From the IMG/VR virus record IMGVR_UViG_3300033388_003553, positions 1-64,000 of that record: 64,000 nt of DNA, one strand, 5' to 3'. This document shows, in pieces, positions 3,689 through 41,541 of the stretch. The notes below the pieces were generated by a model, which saw only the letters and a program-made list of their open reading frames with translations, was not told the origin of the DNA and did no database searches. The position numbers and the translations under genes were made by a program. The stretch's first letter is position 1; each line of letters opens with the position of its first letter. The DNA is from a virus.

Positions 3689-3949
3689 ATGAGTTTAGAA
3701 GAAAAACTGTTTAAGTTATTAGAGGATTACGGATGTAGAGATGGCATTCAAGTTGAGAATATAACAGAAGCTTATTATACATCTGATAAAGATTTAAGAG
3801 TTTACACAAAAAATGGAAATTGTTTTGAGGTTAAGAGAGTATCTACTAATGATAAGTTAGAATACACTTTTGATGCTCGTATTTTTGATGGCTTTAATAC
3901 TATAACCATAGAAGAAGCTATTGATTTAATTAATGAAACAATAATTTAA
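3689..3949 (+). CDS. Hypothetical cassette protein (86 aa)
   Basis: MSLEEKLFKLLEDYGCRDGIQVENITEAYY... reads as an N-terminal helix followed by beta strands. It is the first of two ORFs in the cassette bounded by GTTAGCAAA (3671) and TTTGCTAAC (4034). Function unknown. Confidence 0.6.
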   Translation: MSLEEKLFKLLEDYGCRDGIQVENITEAYYTSDKDLRVYTKNGNCFEVKRVSTNDKLEYTFDARIFDGFNTITIEEAIDLINETII

Positions 3950-4348: not shown

Positions 4349-4528
4349 ATGAAAACAGAATTTAAAAGAAAGTACAAGAAATTAACCGTTTGGGGAAACG
4401 TAGGTACAACTGTAAATATAAACTTAGAGAGTGACATACCTTTTGAAGAACCGCAAGACGTTGAGGTTGATTTAACCAATGACGAGGTAAAGGAACTTAT
4501 TAAAACACTACAAAGTTTAGTTCTTTAA
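4349..4528 (+). CDS. Hypothetical cassette protein (59 aa)
   Basis: MKTEFKRKYKKLTVWGNVGTTVNINLES... has a basic start, beta-rich middle and acidic helix. It lies between inverse core GCACTACAACG (4307) and core GTTGTAAAA (4544), i.e. inside an attC-type loop of about 240 nt. Confidence 0.55.
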   Translation: MKTEFKRKYKKLTVWGNVGTTVNINLESDIPFEEPQDVEVDLTNDEVKELIKTLQSLVL

Positions 4529-4543
4529 TTATTTATATTATGT

Positions 4544-4572
4544 GTTGTAAAATCGTTTTAATGTTTTACAAC
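4544..4572 (+). repeat. Gene-less mini-cassette
   Basis: GTTGTAAAA (4544) and TTTTACAAC (4564) enclose a loop containing CGTTTTAATG, a motif shared with other attC loops in the array. Confidence 0.65.
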
Positions 4573-4669: not shown

Positions 4670-4915
4670 ATGGGATTTAAACAATATAGAAGAACACAGA
4701 TTGCAGAGATGACACCTGTAACAAAAGAAATGCAAGACAACTTTAAAAACAAACCTGCATTTATTGTAGATAACATTGTTGTGTCGGTTAGTAACGAAGA
4801 CTTAAATAATGGTAGTCCCAAAGTTGGTGATATGATAGCAAGAAACCCAAAAAACCATAAAGACCAATGGCTAGTAGCTAAAAAATACTTTGAAGATAAT
4901 TTTGAGGTTATCTAA
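4670..4915 (+). CDS. Hypothetical cassette protein of a phage-like small-protein type (81 aa)
   Basis: The C-terminal stretch GDMIARNPKNHKDQWLVAKK resembles a conserved segment seen in small phage proteins, recalled without a database check. The N-terminal RRTQIAEM... is basic. Cassette ends GTTAGGCAC and GTGCCTAAC are perfect complements. Function unknown. Confidence 0.65.
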   Translation: MGFKQYRRTQIAEMTPVTKEMQDNFKNKPAFIVDNIVVSVSNEDLNNGSPKVGDMIARNPKNHKDQWLVAKKYFEDNFEVI

Positions 4916-5055: not shown

Positions 5056-5280
5056 ATGAAAAAATTCGCAACAGCCTACTTTAGTCTTTTTGAAAACAAT
5101 GCAGTAGCACAAGTATTTGAAGCTAAAAACCAAGTTGAAGCTATGAAAAAAGCTATACTTTCTAATCAAAAAGACGAACATACAAGAGAATGGTTAAATG
5201 ATATGATTAATTTAAGTGTAGAAGATTTTAAAAATGAAGTTTTGCAATGTGAGATAGGCGTTGATGCTATAGAAATCTAA
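5056..5280 (+). CDS. Hypothetical cassette protein (74 aa)
   Basis: ATG 5056 is chosen because it follows core GTTATGTGGTG (5037). MKKFATAYFSLFENNAVAQVFEAKNQVEAMKK... reads as strand-strand-helix, resembling small proteins that modify or bind amino-acid or nucleotide ligands, but no family is assigned. It closes with CCACATAACG at 5283. Confidence 0.6.
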   Translation: MKKFATAYFSLFENNAVAQVFEAKNQVEAMKKAILSNQKDEHTREWLNDMINLSVEDFKNEVLQCEIGVDAIEI

Positions 5281-5323
5281 TACCACATAACGTCAAATGT
5301 AACAGTAGTAAATAAAACGGATT

Positions 5324-5554
5324 ATGAGAATAGCGAAACTTAGAAAGCGACTAAAAGAAAAAAAATTTTTAGAAAAGCAATATAATAGACTAACACAAGA
5401 AGCGTCTGAAATGGATGATTTTAGAAGGTTTGAATGTTCTACTTTTTTTCGGGGTTATGAAAGAGCAGAATATAATCAACGAAAGTATGATAAGACAATG
5501 AAGCAATTAACAAGGCAGATAGATTTTATAAAAAGACTACTTAATATAGAGTAG
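5324..5554 (+). CDS. Basic coiled-coil cassette protein (76 aa)
   Basis: MRIAKLRKRLKEKKFLEKQYNRLTQEAS... and QLTRQIDFIKRLLNIE have heptad-like spacing, predicting a coiled coil. It lies between CCACATAACG (5283) and the core at 5583, in the attC-loop polarity. Function unknown. Confidence 0.55.
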   Translation: MRIAKLRKRLKEKKFLEKQYNRLTQEASEMDDFRRFECSTFFRGYERAEYNQRKYDKTMKQLTRQIDFIKRLLNIE

Positions 5555-5607: not shown

Positions 5608-5719
5608 GAGCAAGTGTATGGCACGTTGCCACAACTAAATTAAAAACGATATGAATTGGATTAAGAAATTATTTAATAAAAAAGAAGGAAAGCAATGTGC
5701 TATACATAATGTTAGCCAC
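5598..5719 (+). repeat. attC site
   Basis: Left arm GTGTATGGCACGTTGCCAC, right arm GCAATGTGCTATACAT, core GTTAGCCAC (5711). The next ORF starts in the loop. Confidence 0.75.
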
Positions 5720-5875
5720 AGTTATATTTTAGGTGAAAGAGATGAAACAGGTTTTTGTGATTTGTATAGAGATGGTGAAAAGACAAATGTTAGAATGTTG
5801 ACTTTTACTCCTGAACAAGTAAAGAACTTACAAGATATTGCCGATAAGATATATCGTGAAAATAATTGTGGCTAA
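5651..5875 (+). CDS. Hypothetical cassette protein with attC-derived N-terminus (74 aa)
   Basis: MNWIKKLFNKKEGKQCAIHNVSHSY...: residues up to HNVSH are read from the attC loop, right arm and core. The cassette body encodes the remaining ~50 residues (ILGERDETGFCDLYRDGEK...). It closes with TGTGGCTAAC (5867), complementary to GTTAGCCACA. Function unknown. Confidence 0.6.
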   Translation: MNWIKKLFNKKEGKQCAIHNVSHSYILGERDETGFCDLYRDGEKTNVRMLTFTPEQVKNLQDIADKIYRENNCG

Positions 5876-6069
5876 CGCTCTGGGTATGGAGTCGGTTTTT
5901 TACGGATTTGAAACACTAAAACAAAAGATAATGAGTACGGAGAAAGATTTAAACTATTATAAAGCAAACGCAGAAGAGGATTATAAACACGTGCCTATAA
6001 GTGTGCTAAGGTACATTTCGGAGTTAGAAACAGCAGTAAAAAACTGCTCTATACCTAATGTTAGCAACC
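5867..6069 (+). repeat. attC site with long loop
   Basis: Inverse core TGTGGCTAACG, left arm GCTCTGGGTATGGAG, right arm CTGCTCTATACCTAATG, core GTTAGCAACC (6060). The loop of ~160 nt carries the first half of the next ORF. Confidence 0.65.
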
Positions 6070-6194
6070 CGTTTAATGCAAGTGAGTTTGAATACTCTGA
6101 ATTTATTAAAGGCAAAGGTAAGGAGTATAACTACGTATCTAATAAGATACACTATTTCGTGAATGGTGAATTGGTTAAAATACTTAATCAATAA
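5931..6194 (+). CDS. Hypothetical protein spanning an attC recombination point (87 aa)
   Basis: MSTEKDLNYYKANAEEDYKHVP... runs through the core GTTAGCAACC, read as NVSNP. The first ~43 residues belong to the upstream attC loop and the last ~44 to the cassette 6060-6206. The product is thus potentially a chimera of two exchangeable modules. Function unknown. Confidence 0.6.
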   Translation: MSTEKDLNYYKANAEEDYKHVPISVLRYISELETAVKNCSIPNVSNPFNASEFEYSEFIKGKGKEYNYVSNKIHYFVNGELVKILNQ

Positions 6195-6196
6195 TG

Positions 6197-6322
6197 GTTG
6201 CTAACGATTGCAAATATAAAAAGTTTAAAACTAAACTTTAATTAAATGAGATAAATTTACGACATTTATAGATTTTTATTTGGTATTCTGAATAAAATGT
6301 TTTATATTTGCTGTTATAAAAT
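6197..6322 (+). repeat. attC site containing a promoter
   Basis: Inverse core GGTTGCTAACG, left arm TTGCAAATATAAAA, right arm TTTTATATTTGCTG, core GTTATAAAAT (6313). The right arm doubles as a promoter -7 element. Confidence 0.75.
6280..6310 (+). promoter_or_regulatory. Bacteroidota-type promoter inside attC
   Basis: TTG at 6280-6282 and TATATTTG at 6303-6310, 20 nt apart, match TTG-N19/20-TAnnTTTG. It is placed to transcribe the cassette starting at 6313. Confidence 0.6.
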
Positions 6323-6331
6323 CGTAAAATT

Positions 6332-6499
6332 ATGGACTTAGAAACTTGGATTGTAGTTGAAAATGGTGATATGTTTGAAGGAACACGAGAACAGTTTATG
6401 GATTGTTTCTTTTCAAATGCAGATGATGATGAAATTAAAGATTGGTGCTTTGATAATGGTTGGAAACTTAAAATAGGTGAAGAAACAATCTTCGCTTAA
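6332..6499 (+). CDS. Small acidic cassette protein (55 aa)
   Basis: MDLETWIVVENGDMFEGTREQFMDCFF... is strongly acidic with several Trp. It is the first gene after the attC-borne promoter. The cassette closes with TTTTATAAC at 6510. Function unknown; an inhibitor or DNA-mimic role would be speculation. Confidence 0.6.
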   Translation: MDLETWIVVENGDMFEGTREQFMDCFFSNADDDEIKDWCFDNGWKLKIGEETIFA

Positions 6500-17453: not shown

Positions 17454-18131
17454 ATGAAAAAGCCACATAAAATAGTAATGTTACCTACTGAGGATAGTAG
17501 TTGTTTATGTATTGCTGATGGTAGATTGTACTATTACTCAAAGGATAAATGGTTTACTAAAGATTGTGACACACAACCACAACACCTCTACATACTCTCA
17601 GATGATGAGATAAGAAAAGGTGATTGGTTTTATAATGGTGTTAATGTGGAAAAAACATTAAGAGTAGAATCTCAAATTCCATTTCATGGGTGTAAGAAAA
17701 TCATAGCTACAACTGATTCTAAGCTCACAAATCTTATATATAAGAATGAGGAAGACTATTTTAATTATGATAATGGTGATAAACTTAACACTAATAAATT
17801 ATTAGCTCAAATCCCTCAATTACTCATAGAATACTATACTAAACATCAGCCTGAAGAGGTTGAGTTAGAGTATGAATGGATTGAAAGAAAAAGGAATCAG
17901 TCTAAAGAAGATAGAAACTATAAACTCAAACTCCAAAACAACGAGGTTATTATATCTTCTTTTTTATGTACTTATAGAACACCAAAGGATTCTTGGACAA
18001 AAGAAGAGTACCTCAGAGATATTAAACAGATATTAGATGACCTTAATGCCCATGCAGAGGGTTTACCCACTGATGCAGATATAAAGAAGTATATCAACAA
18101 TTGGGTAGATAAAAAGTATAACAAATTTTAA
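17454..18131 (+). CDS. Hypothetical protein of the HLYILSDDEI-KGDW type (225 aa)
   Basis: MKKPHKIVMLPTEDSSCLCI... followed by PQHLYILSDDEIRKGDWFY, CKKIIATTDSKL and a C-terminal DIKKYINNWVDKKYN helix. The same order of motifs occurs in 38791-39531, so the two are distant paralogues. A conserved family in Bacteroidota phages as far as I recall; function unknown. Confidence 0.65.
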   Translation: MKKPHKIVMLPTEDSSCLCIADGRLYYYSKDKWFTKDCDTQPQHLYILSDDEIRKGDWFYNGVNVEKTLRVESQIPFHGCKKIIATTDSKLTNLIYKNEEDYFNYDNGDKLNTNKLLAQIPQLLIEYYTKHQPEEVELEYEWIERKRNQSKEDRNYKLKLQNNEVIISSFLCTYRTPKDSWTKEEYLRDIKQILDDLNAHAEGLPTDADIKKYINNWVDKKYNKF

Positions 18132-20059: not shown

Positions 20060-20069
20060 GGTCTTTGAA
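20060..20069 (+). promoter_or_regulatory. boxA-like element
   Basis: GGTCTTTGAA just before the first tRNA; compare GTTCTTTGAC at 23976 and 34101. It resembles the boxA of rRNA operons (GCTCTTTAAC). Confidence 0.4.
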
Positions 20070-20511: not shown

Positions 20512-20660
20512 CGCTACGTGGAGCATTGGAGAGTCATGGCAAGGATTTAATTTTAGCGGGTAAGCAACCTAGGAACGTGAGACCCAAGTTTATTAAATTC
20601 GACTCAAAGCTCGCTGGGGGCATATCCCAGAGGCAACAGGTTCGATTCCTGTCGTAGCAA
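20512..20660 (+). tRNA. Initiator-type tRNA-Met(CAT) with a large D-loop insertion
   Basis: Initiator marks: C1xA72 mismatch (CGCTACG/CGTAGCA), D stem GAGC/GCTC (A11-T24), anticodon stem CTGGG/CCCAG with three G-C pairs, loop GGCATAT. T arm ACAGG-TTCGATT-CCTGT. The D loop (20525-20608) is 84 nt instead of ~9; the insert folds on itself (GAGTC/GACTC, ATTTAAT/ATTAAAT). Position 33 is G, not U. Function as an initiator is uncertain. Confidence 0.6.
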
Positions 20661-20671
20661 CAATAATATAT

Positions 20672-20863: not shown

Positions 20864-20954
20864 TTAGATATGATGGAATTGGTAGACATGACCCCTTAGT
20901 CGGGGTGGAGAAAACTTTTGTCACTCCGTGTAGGTTCGAGTCCTACTATTTAAC
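20864..20954 (+). tRNA. tRNA-Leu(TAG)
   Basis: Acceptor TTAGATA/TATTTAA, anticodon region ACCCC-TTAGTC-GGGGT (loop reads TAG; 6 nt if all five pairs form), long variable arm GGAG...CTCC, T arm GTAGG-TTCGAGT-CCTAC. Discriminator C is unusual. Confidence 0.7.
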
Positions 20955-20956
20955 CC

Positions 20957-22496: not shown

Positions 22497-23420
22497 ATGA
22501 AATCACTAATTAAAAAATTACTCAGAGAATCATTATTAACTGAACTAAGGGTAATTAACCCTAAATCAATTTCTAAAGAAGAACCACTTAAAGACTCTGA
22601 TACGATAAGGGTATATCATGGTTTTAATGATTATGAAGATGCAATTATGGCAGTAAAGTTTGGATTTTCTGGTAAGGAAAAGGCTAAAAGAATTTATTCA
22701 TATGAGTCTAACAATAACCCTAATGGACTATTTGTTACTTTAGATTTAGAAACAGCAAAAAAATTCACGAGTCCAAGAAGTAAAAGAGGTATCACAGTTA
22801 TTATGGAACTTAGTGTTAAAGTATCAGAATTAGAGGCACCAGTATGGCCTAGTGGTTCTTATACAGTACAAGGTCAGATGTCTAAAAATTGGAGAAATGA
22901 TAATGATAGATACGAAAATGGTACACTTAAAGCTAGGGAAAAAGCATCACAAAGTAAGTATGGGTTTATTAGTGGTGCCGATAGACCAGAGTTAGCTGCA
23001 ACTTTAATGGGGTCAGAGAACCAAGCATTATATATGGGAGATATAAACCCCAATATGATTAAACGTGTATTTTTTGGTGAATCTGGTAAACATAACCTTA
23101 TTGCTAAAAATCTAGATAGGATATCCCCTAAAGAATTCCTTAGTAAGTTTGAAACACATGAGCCAGAAAGGATAAAACATAGTAGAAGCGGTAAAGAAGT
23201 TGAAACATTGAGTAATAAAGGACAAGAGTATTATAATAAGAAAAGAAAAATATTCCAACCCAATGACGATTTCTCAATGGATATCTTATCACAAAAATTA
23301 AAAGATATTGGATTTACTGATGGTAGTAAAAAACAATCACTAGAATTTCTAAATAATGAATATTCAGTTGGTTATTTATGGCCTAAACAACTAAAACAAC
23401 TGGAAGATAATAAAATATGA
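22497..23420 (+). CDS. ADP-ribosyltransferase-like protein with prohead-type N-terminus (307 aa)
   Basis: IRVYHGFNDYEDA, NGLFVTLDLETAKKF and ITVIMELSV follow the H-Y-...-E order of the ART fold in toxin-like ADP-ribosyltransferases (VYHG box, LF-T-x-x-x-A). The first residues MKSLIKKLLRESLLTEL are nearly repeated at 23417 and in 26895; with L-x-E cleavage sites they resemble capsid-targeting leaders of T4 internal head proteins such as Alt. I infer packaging and injection with the DNA. Confidence 0.55.
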   Translation: MKSLIKKLLRESLLTELRVINPKSISKEEPLKDSDTIRVYHGFNDYEDAIMAVKFGFSGKEKAKRIYSYESNNNPNGLFVTLDLETAKKFTSPRSKRGITVIMELSVKVSELEAPVWPSGSYTVQGQMSKNWRNDNDRYENGTLKAREKASQSKYGFISGADRPELAATLMGSENQALYMGDINPNMIKRVFFGESGKHNLIAKNLDRISPKEFLSKFETHEPERIKHSRSGKEVETLSNKGQEYYNKKRKIFQPNDDFSMDILSQKLKDIGFTDGSKKQSLEFLNNEYSVGYLWPKQLKQLEDNKI

Positions 23421-25892: not shown

Positions 25893-26822
25893 ATGAAAAA
25901 GACAAAAGTAAGTGACAACGCTTTAAATGAAATTAAGTTAATTAAGTTAAAACGAATTTTAGAAGAATTTAGAGGTGATGATTCAACAGATGGTGTTTTT
26001 ACCATTAACGGTGAAAAAATACGTGCAACACATATTGAATGTACCCCAGAATTAGCCCAATACATTTTAGATGAATTCAACGACAGTAATAGGCCCGCTA
26101 AAAAAGTTAATTTAAATTATTTAAAACGTGAGATTTTAAATGGTAATTGGTTGACCAATGGTGACACCATTAAGTTTAATAATGATGGGTCAATGAATGA
26201 TGGTCAACATAGATTAAAGTCTATCATTGAAACCAATGTTACGTTACCATTGATTGTTATTAGTGGTCTTACAACCAAAAGTTTTAAAAGTTTAGATGTT
26301 GGTACTAAAAGAACTGGTTCGGATGTATTAGCAGTAAAGGGTGTTAAAAATTCAACAAACTCCGCTTCAGTAGTTAAATTTATTCATGCTTTTAGTAACA
26401 ATAAATATAGTGAAAACACCATGGCAACTAGGACATTAAGTAATACTAATATTGAAGATTATTATGATTTATTGATGCCAAACATTGAAACATCAGTTAA
26501 ATTTATTAATAATTATTCTAGTACTTGTAAGGGATTTATTAGACCAACATTAATTGGTGGTTTTCATTATTTACTTGGTGAAATTGACCCAGAACTTAGG
26601 GATGAGTTTTTAATTAAATTATGTACAGGTATTGGGTTAGAGGCTGACTCACCAATCACAGCACTAAGGTCAAAATTAATTAGGATTCAGTATGATAAAA
26701 ATAGTCGTTTAACCAACTTAGATATGTTAAAAAATATTGTTTATACTTGGAACAAGTGTAGAAAAGGTCAAACAGCAAAAAATATCAAAATACCGTCAGA
26801 TTTTAAAATTAAATTATTATAA
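25893..26822 (+). CDS. DGQHR/ParB-superfamily protein A (309 aa)
   Basis: ILNGNWLTNGDTIKFNNDGSMNDGQHRLKSI contains the NGxx-DGQHRL signature of ParB/Srx-like domains; then GLTTKSFKSLDVGTKRTGSDVL and a helical C-terminal half (residues 150-300). Paralogue of 30078-30929. Such phage proteins are often annotated ParB-like or linked to DNA modification, without proof. It starts soon after the tRNA cluster and ends in a strong terminator. Confidence 0.65.
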   Translation: MKKTKVSDNALNEIKLIKLKRILEEFRGDDSTDGVFTINGEKIRATHIECTPELAQYILDEFNDSNRPAKKVNLNYLKREILNGNWLTNGDTIKFNNDGSMNDGQHRLKSIIETNVTLPLIVISGLTTKSFKSLDVGTKRTGSDVLAVKGVKNSTNSASVVKFIHAFSNNKYSENTMATRTLSNTNIEDYYDLLMPNIETSVKFINNYSSTCKGFIRPTLIGGFHYLLGEIDPELRDEFLIKLCTGIGLEADSPITALRSKLIRIQYDKNSRLTNLDMLKNIVYTWNKCRKGQTAKNIKIPSDFKIKLL

Positions 26823-30077: not shown

Positions 30078-30929
30078 ATGAATACAGAAATTAAAACGGA
30101 GTTACAGAAATCAACATTCGAGATTAACGGATTAAAAGTTAAGATTGCATTGGTAGATATAACACCAGAGGTGGCTGAGAGCTTACTATCAAAAAATTCA
30201 AACAACAGAACATTATCACCTAGTAATGTTAAATTTTTAACTAACGAGATTTTAAATGGTAATTGGCAATTTGATGGTCAACCAATTAGAATTGATTATA
30301 ATGGTAATTTATTAGATGGTCAACATCGGTTAAATAGTATTATCAAGAGTGGTGAAATTATTAAGTGTTTTGTTATTTTTGGTTTAAGACCAGAAACATT
30401 TAAAGTAATGGATACTGGTAAAATTAGGACTGCATCAGATGTTTTATCAATTGAGAAGATTAGTAACTCAAGTTATGTTGCTACTTCATTGAAATTACTA
30501 GATGCAATTAAAGCTGGTATTTATTCTGGTCATAAGAGAAGAACATTATCGAACACTGAGGTCTTAGAGTATTATGAGAATAATATGGGGATTTCAAATA
30601 GTGTGAATTATGTTAAATCTGTTAGTCGTAATTTTAAATCGATTGTATCAGTTTCAATTTTAAGTACATTACATTATTTGTTTTCTGAGATTTCAGAATC
30701 AGATGCTAATGAATTCATTGGTAAGTTATGTAGTGGTTCTGGATTGAATGAGAATTCACCAATCTTAGTATTGAGAAACAAATTGATTAAAGCTAATTCT
30801 AGTGATAAGAATAAGTTGACTAAAAAAGACATTATTGGGAATATCATTTTAGGTTGGAACAAGTACCGTGAAGGTGAAGAAATTAAAATGTTATCTTTGA
30901 AAAAAGATTTCGATTTTATTGCAAAATAA
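30078..30929 (+). CDS. DGQHR/ParB-superfamily protein B (283 aa)
   Basis: ILNGNWQFDGQPIRIDYNGNLLDGQHRLNSI and FKVMDTGKIRTASDVLSI parallel protein A (25893) throughout, including RRTLSNTEVLEYY and ILGWNKYREG near the end. An old duplication; both lack an obvious second domain. Confidence 0.65.
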   Translation: MNTEIKTELQKSTFEINGLKVKIALVDITPEVAESLLSKNSNNRTLSPSNVKFLTNEILNGNWQFDGQPIRIDYNGNLLDGQHRLNSIIKSGEIIKCFVIFGLRPETFKVMDTGKIRTASDVLSIEKISNSSYVATSLKLLDAIKAGIYSGHKRRTLSNTEVLEYYENNMGISNSVNYVKSVSRNFKSIVSVSILSTLHYLFSEISESDANEFIGKLCSGSGLNENSPILVLRNKLIKANSSDKNKLTKKDIIGNIILGWNKYREGEEIKMLSLKKDFDFIAK

Positions 30930-30949
30930 GAATTAATTTCGTAACTTTG
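30919..30949 (+). promoter_or_regulatory. Promoter of structured RNA 1
   Basis: TTG (30919-30921), 20 nt, TAACTTTG (30942-30949). Transcription would begin about 30956, just before the folded element. Confidence 0.65.
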
Positions 30950-30985
30950 CATTGTTAGAAATAACAAAACGTTTTTTGAAATATT

Positions 30986-31295
30986 GGAGAAATTAAATAA
31001 AATTGGTTGTACAAGGATAGAGTGGTGCTCGGTAGGTACAGTAACGAGGAAGGGACCAATATATGTGTTAGTCGATAGACTGGCGTAATATCTATTCATC
31101 CGTTATAGTTAACGGCAATACGGAAGGAAAGTTTTCGCAAACCTACTTAGCTTTTGTAATGTAAAAGCAACACGGAGAAAATCCAGAAGTAACTGGTAAA
31201 TCGGGCAGCGTTAATCGCACGGAATTGCCCCGTAATTAAGGTGAACAAAAATCCGTTATACCTTAAGATTGTGAGTGAAAATCTTACTTTCTCCA
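30986..31295 (+). ncRNA. Large structured RNA 1 (about 310 nt)
   Basis: Closed by GGAGAAA (30986)/TTTCTCC (31288). Helices seen: ATTGGT/ACCAAT, a long hairpin with TTAGTC-GATA-GACTGG, CCGTTA/TAACGG, CTTTT-GTAATGT-AAAAG, GGGCA/TGCCC, TTAAGGT/ACCTTAA and TAAGATT/AATCTTA. GC content is visibly above its surroundings. Not matched by me to RNase P, tmRNA, 6S or group I cores. It has its own promoter and precedes the gene at 31325. Confidence 0.65.
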
Positions 31296-31324
31296 CTAAA
31301 TAACGCAAACAAAAATTAATTAAT

Positions 31325-31933
31325 ATGGGTAGTTTAGGTTCATGGGATGCATCAGTATCCCTAAATATGAGGGTTGACCTTAAGAAAAGTAAGGAAAACA
31401 GTTTAGAGGATATTCAAAAGTTTATTAAAAAGAATAAGCAACTTTTGGAAACCACTAAATCAATTGATAAATTAGTAAAAACCGATGTTTTGGTTGCTAT
31501 TGAATTTTATGACGAAGATGATGATGAATTAGATTACATTGAATTATCAAGCTTAGGTCTTAAAGATGTTTTAGCTAAACCATTTATTGAGGATAAAGAA
31601 TACTCTAAACACGAGGAACTAGCAGAATTCGATGGTGATTATTCTTCACCAGAAAATTGGTTGTATAAGGTTTTGGTTGATAGGTCACGATTAGAAACTA
31701 AACTTAAGTTTGTTAACTTAAAGAAATTAAAAGACCACATATATGGTTGGGATGTTAATTCACCATATATTGTATTTGATAGTATGGAGTTAGCATCATG
31801 TGGTGATTATATTTATTGTGGAAACGATAATTCTAGTTCCGATACATTTAAGGTGACTAAAAAATTCATCGATAGTTTAAGCGTTGGTGATATTATTGTG
31901 TTAGAAGGGAATGGTGATGGAGAACATTGCTAA
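31325..31933 (+). CDS. Hypothetical acidic protein between two structured RNAs (202 aa)
   Basis: MGSLGSWDASVSLNMRVDLKKSKENSLED..., with IEFYDEDDDELDYIELS and a C-terminal SLSVGDIIVLEGNGDGEHC. Strongly acidic, alpha/beta, no membrane segment. The position suggests an RNA-partner protein or co-regulated gene. No family recognised. Confidence 0.6.
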   Translation: MGSLGSWDASVSLNMRVDLKKSKENSLEDIQKFIKKNKQLLETTKSIDKLVKTDVLVAIEFYDEDDDELDYIELSSLGLKDVLAKPFIEDKEYSKHEELAEFDGDYSSPENWLYKVLVDRSRLETKLKFVNLKKLKDHIYGWDVNSPYIVFDSMELASCGDYIYCGNDNSSSDTFKVTKKFIDSLSVGDIIVLEGNGDGEHC

Positions 31934-31942
31934 ATAAAATAT

Positions 31943-32318
31943 GGGGTGTAGTCAAATGTGGGCTATTGATGGAGCAATACCATCCACTTCCACTAGCAGT
32001 TGCTTGACTCCGTATAGTACAGCAACAACCATTGGGGTGTCGGAAGCTCATGAATGGTGGCAAAGGGTAAGGCTAAACCTTTAAGTTAGAGTGCCTAAAA
32101 CAAAGGAAACGAAGTAGTATGGTGACATATTATTGGTGCCGAATCTCTAACAACACGGGGTTATCACACCTTCGGGGTCACATTGGAAAGTTACAACCAA
32201 TACCCTTGGGTAATAACGGTAAGTCGGAAACATATTATAAGGTGTACGTTAAATGTACTAGTTACACGCTACTTGTAATGTAAGAATGATAATGTTAGTT
32301 CGAGTCTAACTAACCCCA
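31943..32318 (+). ncRNA. Large structured RNA 2 with tRNA-like ends (about 376 nt)
   Basis: The 5' end GGGGTGT is followed by D-arm-like TCAA...TTGA and an anticodon-like GATGG-AGCAATA-CCATC. The 3' end has a T arm GTTAG-TTCGAGT-CTAAC, then TAACCCC-A. Between them ~300 nt fold into several hairpins, including CCATT/GAATGG and GTTAGAG/CTCTAAC. It shares the TTGTAATGTAA hairpin loop with RNA 1. It looks like a tRNA body with a giant insertion or a tmRNA-like RNA without a visible tag frame. Confidence 0.6.
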
Positions 32319-32433: not shown

Positions 32434-32466
32434 ATGGGGTTTACTTAAGTAAACCCCATTTATTTA
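32434..32466 (+). terminator. Terminator after structured RNA 2
   Basis: Perfect 13-bp palindrome ATGGGGTTTACTT/AAGTAAACCCCAT followed by TTATTT. Confidence 0.75.
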
Positions 32467-36044: not shown

Positions 36045-36136
36045 CAAATATGAGTATGCTTACTCTTGTAGTGAAAGGGTAGCCCCACGTAAGGGGTGTG
36101 CTAAAAAAGCTAAGGACTGAAAAACAAAAATCTACT

Positions 36137-36220
36137 GAGTACGTATTAAGTAGTTTGGAGTGAAATAGGTGACGGTTCCGATGTAAATCGGGTCTTGAGG
36201 TGCGAATCCCCACATACTCA
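36137..36220 (+). tRNA. tRNA-like gene, possibly Tyr(GTA)
   Basis: T arm TGAGG-TGCGAAT-CCCCA and acceptor GAGTACG/CATACTC (one mismatch). A perfect acceptor partner GAGTATG also exists at 36052, which would make a 169-nt gene. The anticodon region TCCGA-TGTAAA-TCGGG has a 6-nt loop. Confidence 0.45.
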
Positions 36221-41357: not shown

Positions 41358-41478
41358 AGGGAGTTGGCGGAAAGGGAGACGCTAGTAGGTTTTATAGAGT
41401 AACTGGATTATTACATTAAGTTGGAAAGTTAAGAAGATTTAAACGTTGCTCATACAGGTTCGAGTCCTGTACTCTCTA
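41358..41478 (+). tRNA. tRNA-Leu-like gene with insertion
   Basis: Acceptor AGGGAGT/ACTCTCT, Leu-type D arm (TGGCGG...GGGAGACGC), T arm ACAGG-TTCGAGT-CCTGT. 121 nt, about 35 longer than a normal class II tRNA. No unambiguous anticodon stem; a GTTAAGA loop (TAA) is one option. Confidence 0.5.
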
Positions 41479-41541
41479 CTAATATTAAATAATAAACAAA
41501 ACTTATTTGGTCAGGTAAATTATATTAATTATATTTGTTTT

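Follow-up and report, generated by a model that had tools for sequence, protein, structure and literature searches.

RNAs C and D of phage T4 are stable RNAs that lie inside the phage tRNA cluster, and their function is unknown. In bacteria, YrlA RNAs mimic tRNA and have a TROVE/Ro60 protein as their partner. The roles of the many tRNA genes carried by phages are debated, and default tRNA finders either report insert-bearing tRNAs as introns or miss them. That phage tRNAs can hold extra sequence is already known, because a survey of jumbo phages has reported 'intronic' sequences within them (PMC13037316); an earlier description of giant tRNA-framed RNAs without a recognisable anticodon was not found in the literature. 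Here we analysed positions 1-64,000 of the 71,433-bp IMG/VR record IMGVR_UViG_3300033388_003553 (hereafter, the window), in which two RNAs, RNA1 (30986..31295, + strand) and RNA2 (31943..32318, + strand), flank the gene of an acidic protein. We propose, with a probability of roughly 55%, that RNA1 and RNA2 are stable tRNA-framed non-coding RNAs that are processed as tRNAs and either engage tRNA-recognising proteins or carry a protected domain.

Judging by its promoter type, its gene content and its matches to Flavobacterium phages, the window most probably represents part of a large Bacteroidota phage. Promoters of the Bacteroidota type (TTTG-N17..23-TAnnTTTG) occur 12 times on the coding (+) strand against twice on the - strand; the window encodes about 22-23 tRNA genes, with runs at 20.0-21.0, 23.8-25.3 and 34.1-36.5 kb, along with a PrkA / DUF444 / SpoVR trio, a Thg1-like protein and Sir2; and Flavobacterium phages are the best among the matches listed for its A1-like DNA transfer protein. 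Related records, found via PrkA/SpoVR, include sizes of 150-342 kb. Two paralogues of phrog_5931, which carries a ParB-like domain annotation in some phages, are encoded at 25893-26822 and 30078-30929, the latter directly upstream of RNA1. Furthermore, otherwise different proteins encoded at 22497, 26895 and 43332 share a similar N-terminus (MKSLIKKLLRESL, MKTLIKKLLREAL and MSIKNLLNESL), which is possibly a capsid-targeting signal.

RNA1 and RNA2 both end as tRNAs

The 3' end of RNA1 is formed by a T-arm, GUGAG[UGAAAAU]CUUAC (31271..31287, + strand, paired in the free MFE), whose 5-bp stem with its 7-nt loop directly abuts a 7-bp acceptor; the 3' acceptor strand, UUUCUCC (31288-31294), is followed by A73 at 31295. 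With GGAGAAA at 30986-30992 as the 5' strand, all seven acceptor pairs form, and the closure of RNA1 by GGAGAAA/TTTCTCC, as put forward in the original prediction, is exact. The tRNA frame of RNA1 had gone unnoticed there, as had the other tRNA-framed RNAs in the window and in related phages. The 3' end of RNA2 has the same architecture, with the T-arm GUUAG[UUCGAGU]CUAAC (5-bp stem, 7-nt loop), the abutting 7-nt acceptor strand UAACCCC (32311-32317) and then A73, all within 32294..32318 on the + strand. Both T-arms possess U54, A58 and the G53-C61 pair, and a T-arm together with a perfect acceptor was obtained in none of 3000 dinucleotide-preserving shuffles of either region. RNA1 and RNA2 therefore both end as tRNAs.

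The 5' partner of these ends is ambiguous, as each RNA offers two candidate acceptor strands with energies within about 3 kcal/mol of each other. In RNA1, a second GGAGAAA (31174..31180, + strand) gives a 122-nt frame, 31174-31295; left unconstrained, its MFE structure is a cloverleaf in which two bases separate the acceptor from a 4-bp D stem, and closure energies are -77.8 kcal/mol for the outer frame and -75.0 kcal/mol for the inner one. The recurrence of GGAGAAA was also considered as a target-site duplication or insertion scar, and this was unsupported, as longer repeats at chance level are present in RNA1. In RNA2, the outer strand GGGGUGU at 31943 closes a frame of 376 nt with two mismatches, and GGGGUUA (32157..32163, + strand) pairs with UAACCCC at all seven positions and closes one of 162 nt, the closure energies of the two frames being -96.6 and -93.8 kcal/mol. 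A 7-bp acceptor, a 5-bp T stem with 7-nt loop and A73 are thus all present in RNA1 with either strand, and in RNA2 with the inner strand. The tRNA-like ends that had been predicted for RNA2 stand on the 3' side, in the T-arm, the acceptor strand and A73, whereas the outer closing helix reaches only five of its seven pairs. Canonical tRNAs of this phage are preceded by T at position -1 in 20 of 23 cases and by WWWT at -4 to -1 in 17 of 23, against a background of 7.6%. Both RNAs fit this leader rule at their outer ends (AATATT|GGAGAAA and AAATAT|GGGGTGT) but not at their inner ends (CAACAC|GG), and a scan of both strands of the window that required such a leader together with a T-arm and a fully paired acceptor returned only RNA1, at 310 nt, and the RNA at 36052-36220. 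Since the outer end of RNA1 obeys the leader rule, a length of 310 nt is favoured for RNA1; RNA2 may be either 376 or 162 nt long, with no preference between them. The same hexamer, CAACAC, precedes the inner acceptor strand in both RNAs.

Beyond these ends, the resemblance to tRNA fades. The tRNA model RF00005 matched neither RNA, and inspection revealed no anticodon loop with U33 in either. The T loop of RNA1, UGAAAAU, has no U55 or C56, and a normal D/T elbow is therefore unlikely; its D-like loop, AAGUAA, lacks GG. These features bear on the proposal that RNA1 and RNA2 are intron-bearing tRNA genes, whose interiors are spliced out, by self-splicing or by phage or host ligases, leaving ordinary tRNAs. 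Such genes would be in keeping with the 'intronic' sequences known from phage tRNAs (PMC13037316) and with the intron mode of ARAGORN, which calls several insert-bearing tRNAs in this phage and its relatives, and two insert-bearing tRNA bodies of relative G016 do hold direct repeats of 8-9 nt. However, RNA1 is without the canonical D-loop GG and T-loop UUC, the U33 loop is missing from both RNAs, and neither contains a group I or group II intron core that Rfam recognises at E up to 10. We consider splicing improbable for this pair.

Interiors, transcription context and related RNA classes

Both RNA segments are non-coding and, as had been predicted, richer in GC (0.39-0.44) than their flanks (0.25-0.31). 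The original prediction stands in substance, with unusual stability borne out in part. Compared with shuffled sequences, whole RNA1 is more stable (z -2.56), and it is the segment 31174-31295 that carries the signal (z -3.6, against -1.05 for the 5' part), whereas RNA2 behaves like its shuffles (z -0.16 for the whole, +0.1 for the 5' part and -1.5 for the 3' part). Extra stability beyond the tRNA frame is therefore seen only in the 3' third of RNA1. A TTGTAATGTAA hairpin loop had been taken to be common to the two RNAs, but its 9-mer TGTAATGTA has five copies in the window where 2.0 are expected, a count reached in 8% of shuffles, so the loop is not significant as a shared motif. Nor are the two RNAs paralogues, as 85 of 500 shuffles match the score of their local alignment.

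No homologue of RNA1, RNA2 or the acidic protein was retrieved from IMG/VR viral contigs with peptide patterns, or from INPHARED phages with blastn and tblastn. Among 48 related records there was none of either RNA, and among 41 of these none of the acidic protein; the exact T-arm/acceptor patterns of the two RNAs likewise retrieved no homologue. An RNA1 match in relative G010 was rejected, as the site falls within apparently coding DNA.

RNA1 has a promoter of its own, in agreement with the original prediction. A Bacteroidota-type promoter, TTG-N20-TAACTTTG, lies at 30919-30949 on the + strand (pattern TTG-N18..24-TAnnTTTG at 30919), and a boxA-like leader, GTTTTTTGAAATATT (30971..30985, + strand), ends at the last base before RNA1. 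Sites resembling boxA (GTTCTTTGA) occur four times on the + strand of the window and never on the - strand; those at 20060, 23976 and 34101 head tRNA runs, and that at 30971 heads RNA1. A terminator-like hairpin was seen by eye upstream of some of these sites, which suggests antitermination control. The gene of the acidic protein (202 aa, pI 4.6; 31325..31933, + strand) starts shortly after the end of RNA1 at 31295 and stops shortly before RNA2 begins at 31943, and RNA1, the gene and RNA2, lying close together, probably form one transcript. The protein has no Pfam match and matches PHROGs at chance level only, and its single-sequence AlphaFold2 model is uninformative (pLDDT 34.8). Downstream, a terminator-like palindrome, ATGGGGTTTACTTAAGTAAACCCCAT, followed by TTATTT, lies at 32434..32459 on the + strand, with a T-rich tail to 32465. 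The strong terminator that had been placed after RNA2 is thus represented by a palindrome; it lies about 115 nt away and is absent from the list of a consensus scanner, and termination after RNA2 is therefore something that we infer.

The two RNAs flank the gene closely, and a single transcript is likely; RNA1 and RNA2 could accordingly be structured untranslated regions through which the acidic protein gene is controlled, with tRNA-like ends left over from decayed tRNA genes. Decayed tRNAs would not be expected to retain exact acceptor and T stems with A73 in both cases, and related phages show this design again, with compensatory changes in the stems, as described below. We regard such a regulatory origin as distinctly improbable.

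The context of RNA1 also invites comparison with the ornate RNAs of phages, a comparison that the original prediction had drawn while leaving both RNAs outside any known class. Rfam indeed assigns neither RNA to a family, even at E up to 10. The GOLLD model (RF02032) finds nothing in the window or in the whole 71-kb record, and the same search recovers true GOLLD RNAs in two relatives, G016 (L117:3684-4088, 291 bits) and G030 (5642-6103, L195, 179 bits). The ROOL model (RF03087) gives no match at E<=10 in the 71-kb record, an absence of little weight as no control genome was positive. In G016, a boxA-like sequence, AACGTTCTTTGACATATTG, which differs by two mismatches from AACGTTTTTTGAAATATTG of RNA1, lies about 450 bases before the GOLLD match within a tRNA array, and the likening to GOLLD is therefore apt as far as context goes. 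Accordingly, RNA1 and RNA2 could be divergent members or functional equivalents of the GOLLD/ROOL-type RNAs, in which the tRNA-like ends would be processing sites and the body a higher-order particle. The size of the RNAs and the tRNA-array setting fit this idea, as do the GOLLD RNAs of both relatives and the near-identical boxA of G016; against it stand the silence in this record of a model that easily finds the relatives' GOLLD, and 5' parts that are not unusually stable. We judge this identity unlikely, while giving it a real chance.

tRNA bodies with altered interiors in the phage and its relatives

RNA1 and RNA2 are not alone in their design. The window contains a tRNA-like gene with an expanded D-loop domain of about 85 nt (20512..20661, + strand), which ARAGORN reports as a tRNA-Leu with an intron; a 169-nt tRNA-framed RNA, GAGTATG...CATACTC, A, CTA (36052..36220, + strand), identified by the scan for acceptor, T-arm and leader; and a Leu-type tRNA body in which the anticodon/variable arm is replaced (41358..41478, + strand; called by the intron mode of ARAGORN at 41358-41479). 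The last of these resembles a set of five paralogous Leu-type tRNA bodies in relative G013 (281 kb), which share the start form AGTCAGGTGGCGGAATGGTAGACGC and the end form ACAGGTTCGATTCCTGTCCTGACTACAA and lie on the - strand of L147 at 3698-3810, 4458-4563, 4713-4883, 5224-5345 and 17878-18006. Their 16-nt 5' ends are 81-94% identical and their 25-nt 3' ends 88-92%, whereas their interiors (53-118 nt) are no more similar than shuffled sequence. A conserved leader, GTGTTGTTCCCTTGAGAAAGGA...CAACACAGAGG.CTTCTCATCCTC, stands before two of the five. In addition, a tRNA-Leu-like sequence at 20864-20956 of the window has a 6-nt anticodon loop (UUAGUC), and ARAGORN assigns no amino acid to it. In G016, the direct repeat TAGAGGAC borders an insert in the D-loop of a tRNA-Glu (L117:4221-4326), and a further tRNA (L117:4384-4487; anticodon CTA in the loop) has a 30-nt insert in its anticodon loop.

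Between the RNA at 41358 and the G013 set, three acceptor pairs are changed on both sides and still pair, and in one of the two tRNA-bodied RNAs of the crAss001 group four of the five T-stem pairs change on both sides between genomes. Such two-sided changes mean that tRNA ends are kept by selection around altered interiors, which is, in these relatives, a real feature of the phages. For RNA1 and RNA2 themselves, which have no homologue among the sequences searched, selection on the ends is what we infer by extension.

The crAss001-group RNAs also raise the question of a protein partner. In this group (Kehishuvirus), two previously unannotated tRNA-bodied RNAs lie directly after, on the 3' side of, the TROVE gene (L002 1235-1528; L003 1142-1528; L190; L191; L193); they carry repeated GAGTTACTTC motifs and are candidate phage Y RNAs. 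The T-arm region of RNA2 is identical to one of them at 27 of 29 bases (93%), a match of E 0.1 only, and RNA1 and RNA2 could accordingly be Y-RNA-like partners of a TROVE/Ro60 protein, comparable to the tRNA-mimicking YrlA. Since the T stem of the TROVE-adjacent RNAs varies between crAss phages, the match may be a coincidence. Homology of RNA2 to these RNAs beyond the T-arm was rejected, as the alignment of its body gave 31/1000 with one genome and 973/1000 with another and so failed to align significantly with both genomes tested. The TROVE model (PF05731), positive in PhiCrAssBcn1, found no such gene in the 71-kb record, which is possibly incomplete, or in 19 related records, and the GAGTTACTTC motif is absent from the window. 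A role as Y RNAs is thus very improbable for RNA1 and RNA2. An RNA of G013 (L148:3927-4061) carries the GAGTTACTTC motif, and a TROVE gene was not found with it.

Proposed mode of action and comparison with known systems

We return to the reading of RNA1 and RNA2 as stable tRNA-framed RNAs, and propose a series of linked steps. The acceptor stem, the T-arm and the discriminator A would form the ends of each RNA, and a long non-tRNA body would replace the D/anticodon region. RNA1 would head its own unit, which starts with the promoter and the boxA-like antitermination leader and continues through the acidic protein gene and RNA2 to the terminator. From this transcript, the host tRNA machinery could trim the RNAs: RNase P would generate the 5' ends and RNase Z, or else exonucleases, the 3' ends, followed by CCA addition, and the products may be nuclease-resistant RNAs that display their bodies on a tRNA scaffold. 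The tRNA shape of RNA1 and RNA2 suggests partners that recognise tRNA, and the RNAs might be used to engage such proteins, above all as decoys against host defences that target tRNA; alternatively, they might protect an RNA domain that they carry. Among possible functions we put the decoy role first, at a chance of perhaps one in three; it is prompted by passages in two reports, which propose or show that phage tRNAs overcome tRNA-cleaving defences (PMC10264068, PMC11555353). The structural part of our reading, namely the tRNA frame, is considerably firmer than this function. What speaks against the proposal is that RNA1 and RNA2 have no homologues, and hence that covariation lends no support to their interiors; that their 5' parts are no more stable than shuffles and the elbow of RNA1 is unlikely to form; and that the outer acceptor of RNA2 has two mismatches, its inner alternative being without a tRNA-type leader.

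The smaller RNAs of the same design in related phages suggest that phages exploit the tRNA shape, either as an existing scaffold for other RNAs or to disguise them. We tentatively extend this to a broader proposal, which we think somewhat more likely to fail than to hold: in large Bacteroidota phages the tRNA body may serve as a general chassis, with the acceptor, the T-arm and sometimes the D-arm retained and either the anticodon arm or the entire interior swapped for diverse RNA domains. RNA1 and RNA2 would then be the largest cases, undergoing tRNA processing and acting on tRNA-recognising defence proteins or other host proteins. If such a reusable scaffold exists, phage tRNA arrays would contain non-coding RNAs that have so far been overlooked, some of them perhaps anti-defence decoys, and the scaffold itself would parallel, in nature, the tRNA scaffolds engineered to stabilise RNAs. 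An acceptor and T-arm frame with a long interior behind a boxA provides a simple search rule across genomes.

Several described systems resemble RNA1 and RNA2 in part. tmRNA is like them in length, in its tRNA-like ends and in its long interior, and one or the other RNA could in principle be a divergent tmRNA, given their 310-376 nt and the lack of a clear D stem by the outer acceptor of RNA1. Related large phages do carry predicted permuted tmRNAs (G045, G046 and G030); permuted tmRNA genes of related large phages lie at L098:21310-21740, L178 about 5943-6373 and L187:2525-2928, of which L098 and L187 are confirmed by Rfam RF04321. However, neither the tmRNA models nor ARAGORN, both of which find the tmRNAs of the relatives, call one in the window, and by eye neither RNA showed a tag or the conserved 5' motif of tmRNA, which makes this identity extremely improbable. 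The intron-bearing tRNAs of jumbo phages (PMC13037316) likewise combine tRNA ends with extra interior sequence; RNA1 and RNA2 differ in that no anticodon loop is recognisable and in that the outer frame makes them some 4-5 times as long as a tRNA. YrlA-type bacterial Y RNAs are non-coding RNAs with a tRNA-like part, whereas in RNA1 and RNA2 the tRNA frame constitutes the ends of the RNA, a TROVE/Ro60 gene is absent from the record and there is no common motif. GOLLD (RF02032) is, like RNA1 and RNA2, a large phage non-coding RNA, and the GOLLD of G016, part of a tRNA array, has a boxA-like leader ahead of it, as has RNA1; RNA1 and RNA2 are without a match to its model, are shorter, and are closed by a frame of tRNA acceptor and T-arm. 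Finally, RNAs C and D of T4 would be comparable to RNA1 and RNA2 as stable RNAs from a phage tRNA cluster.
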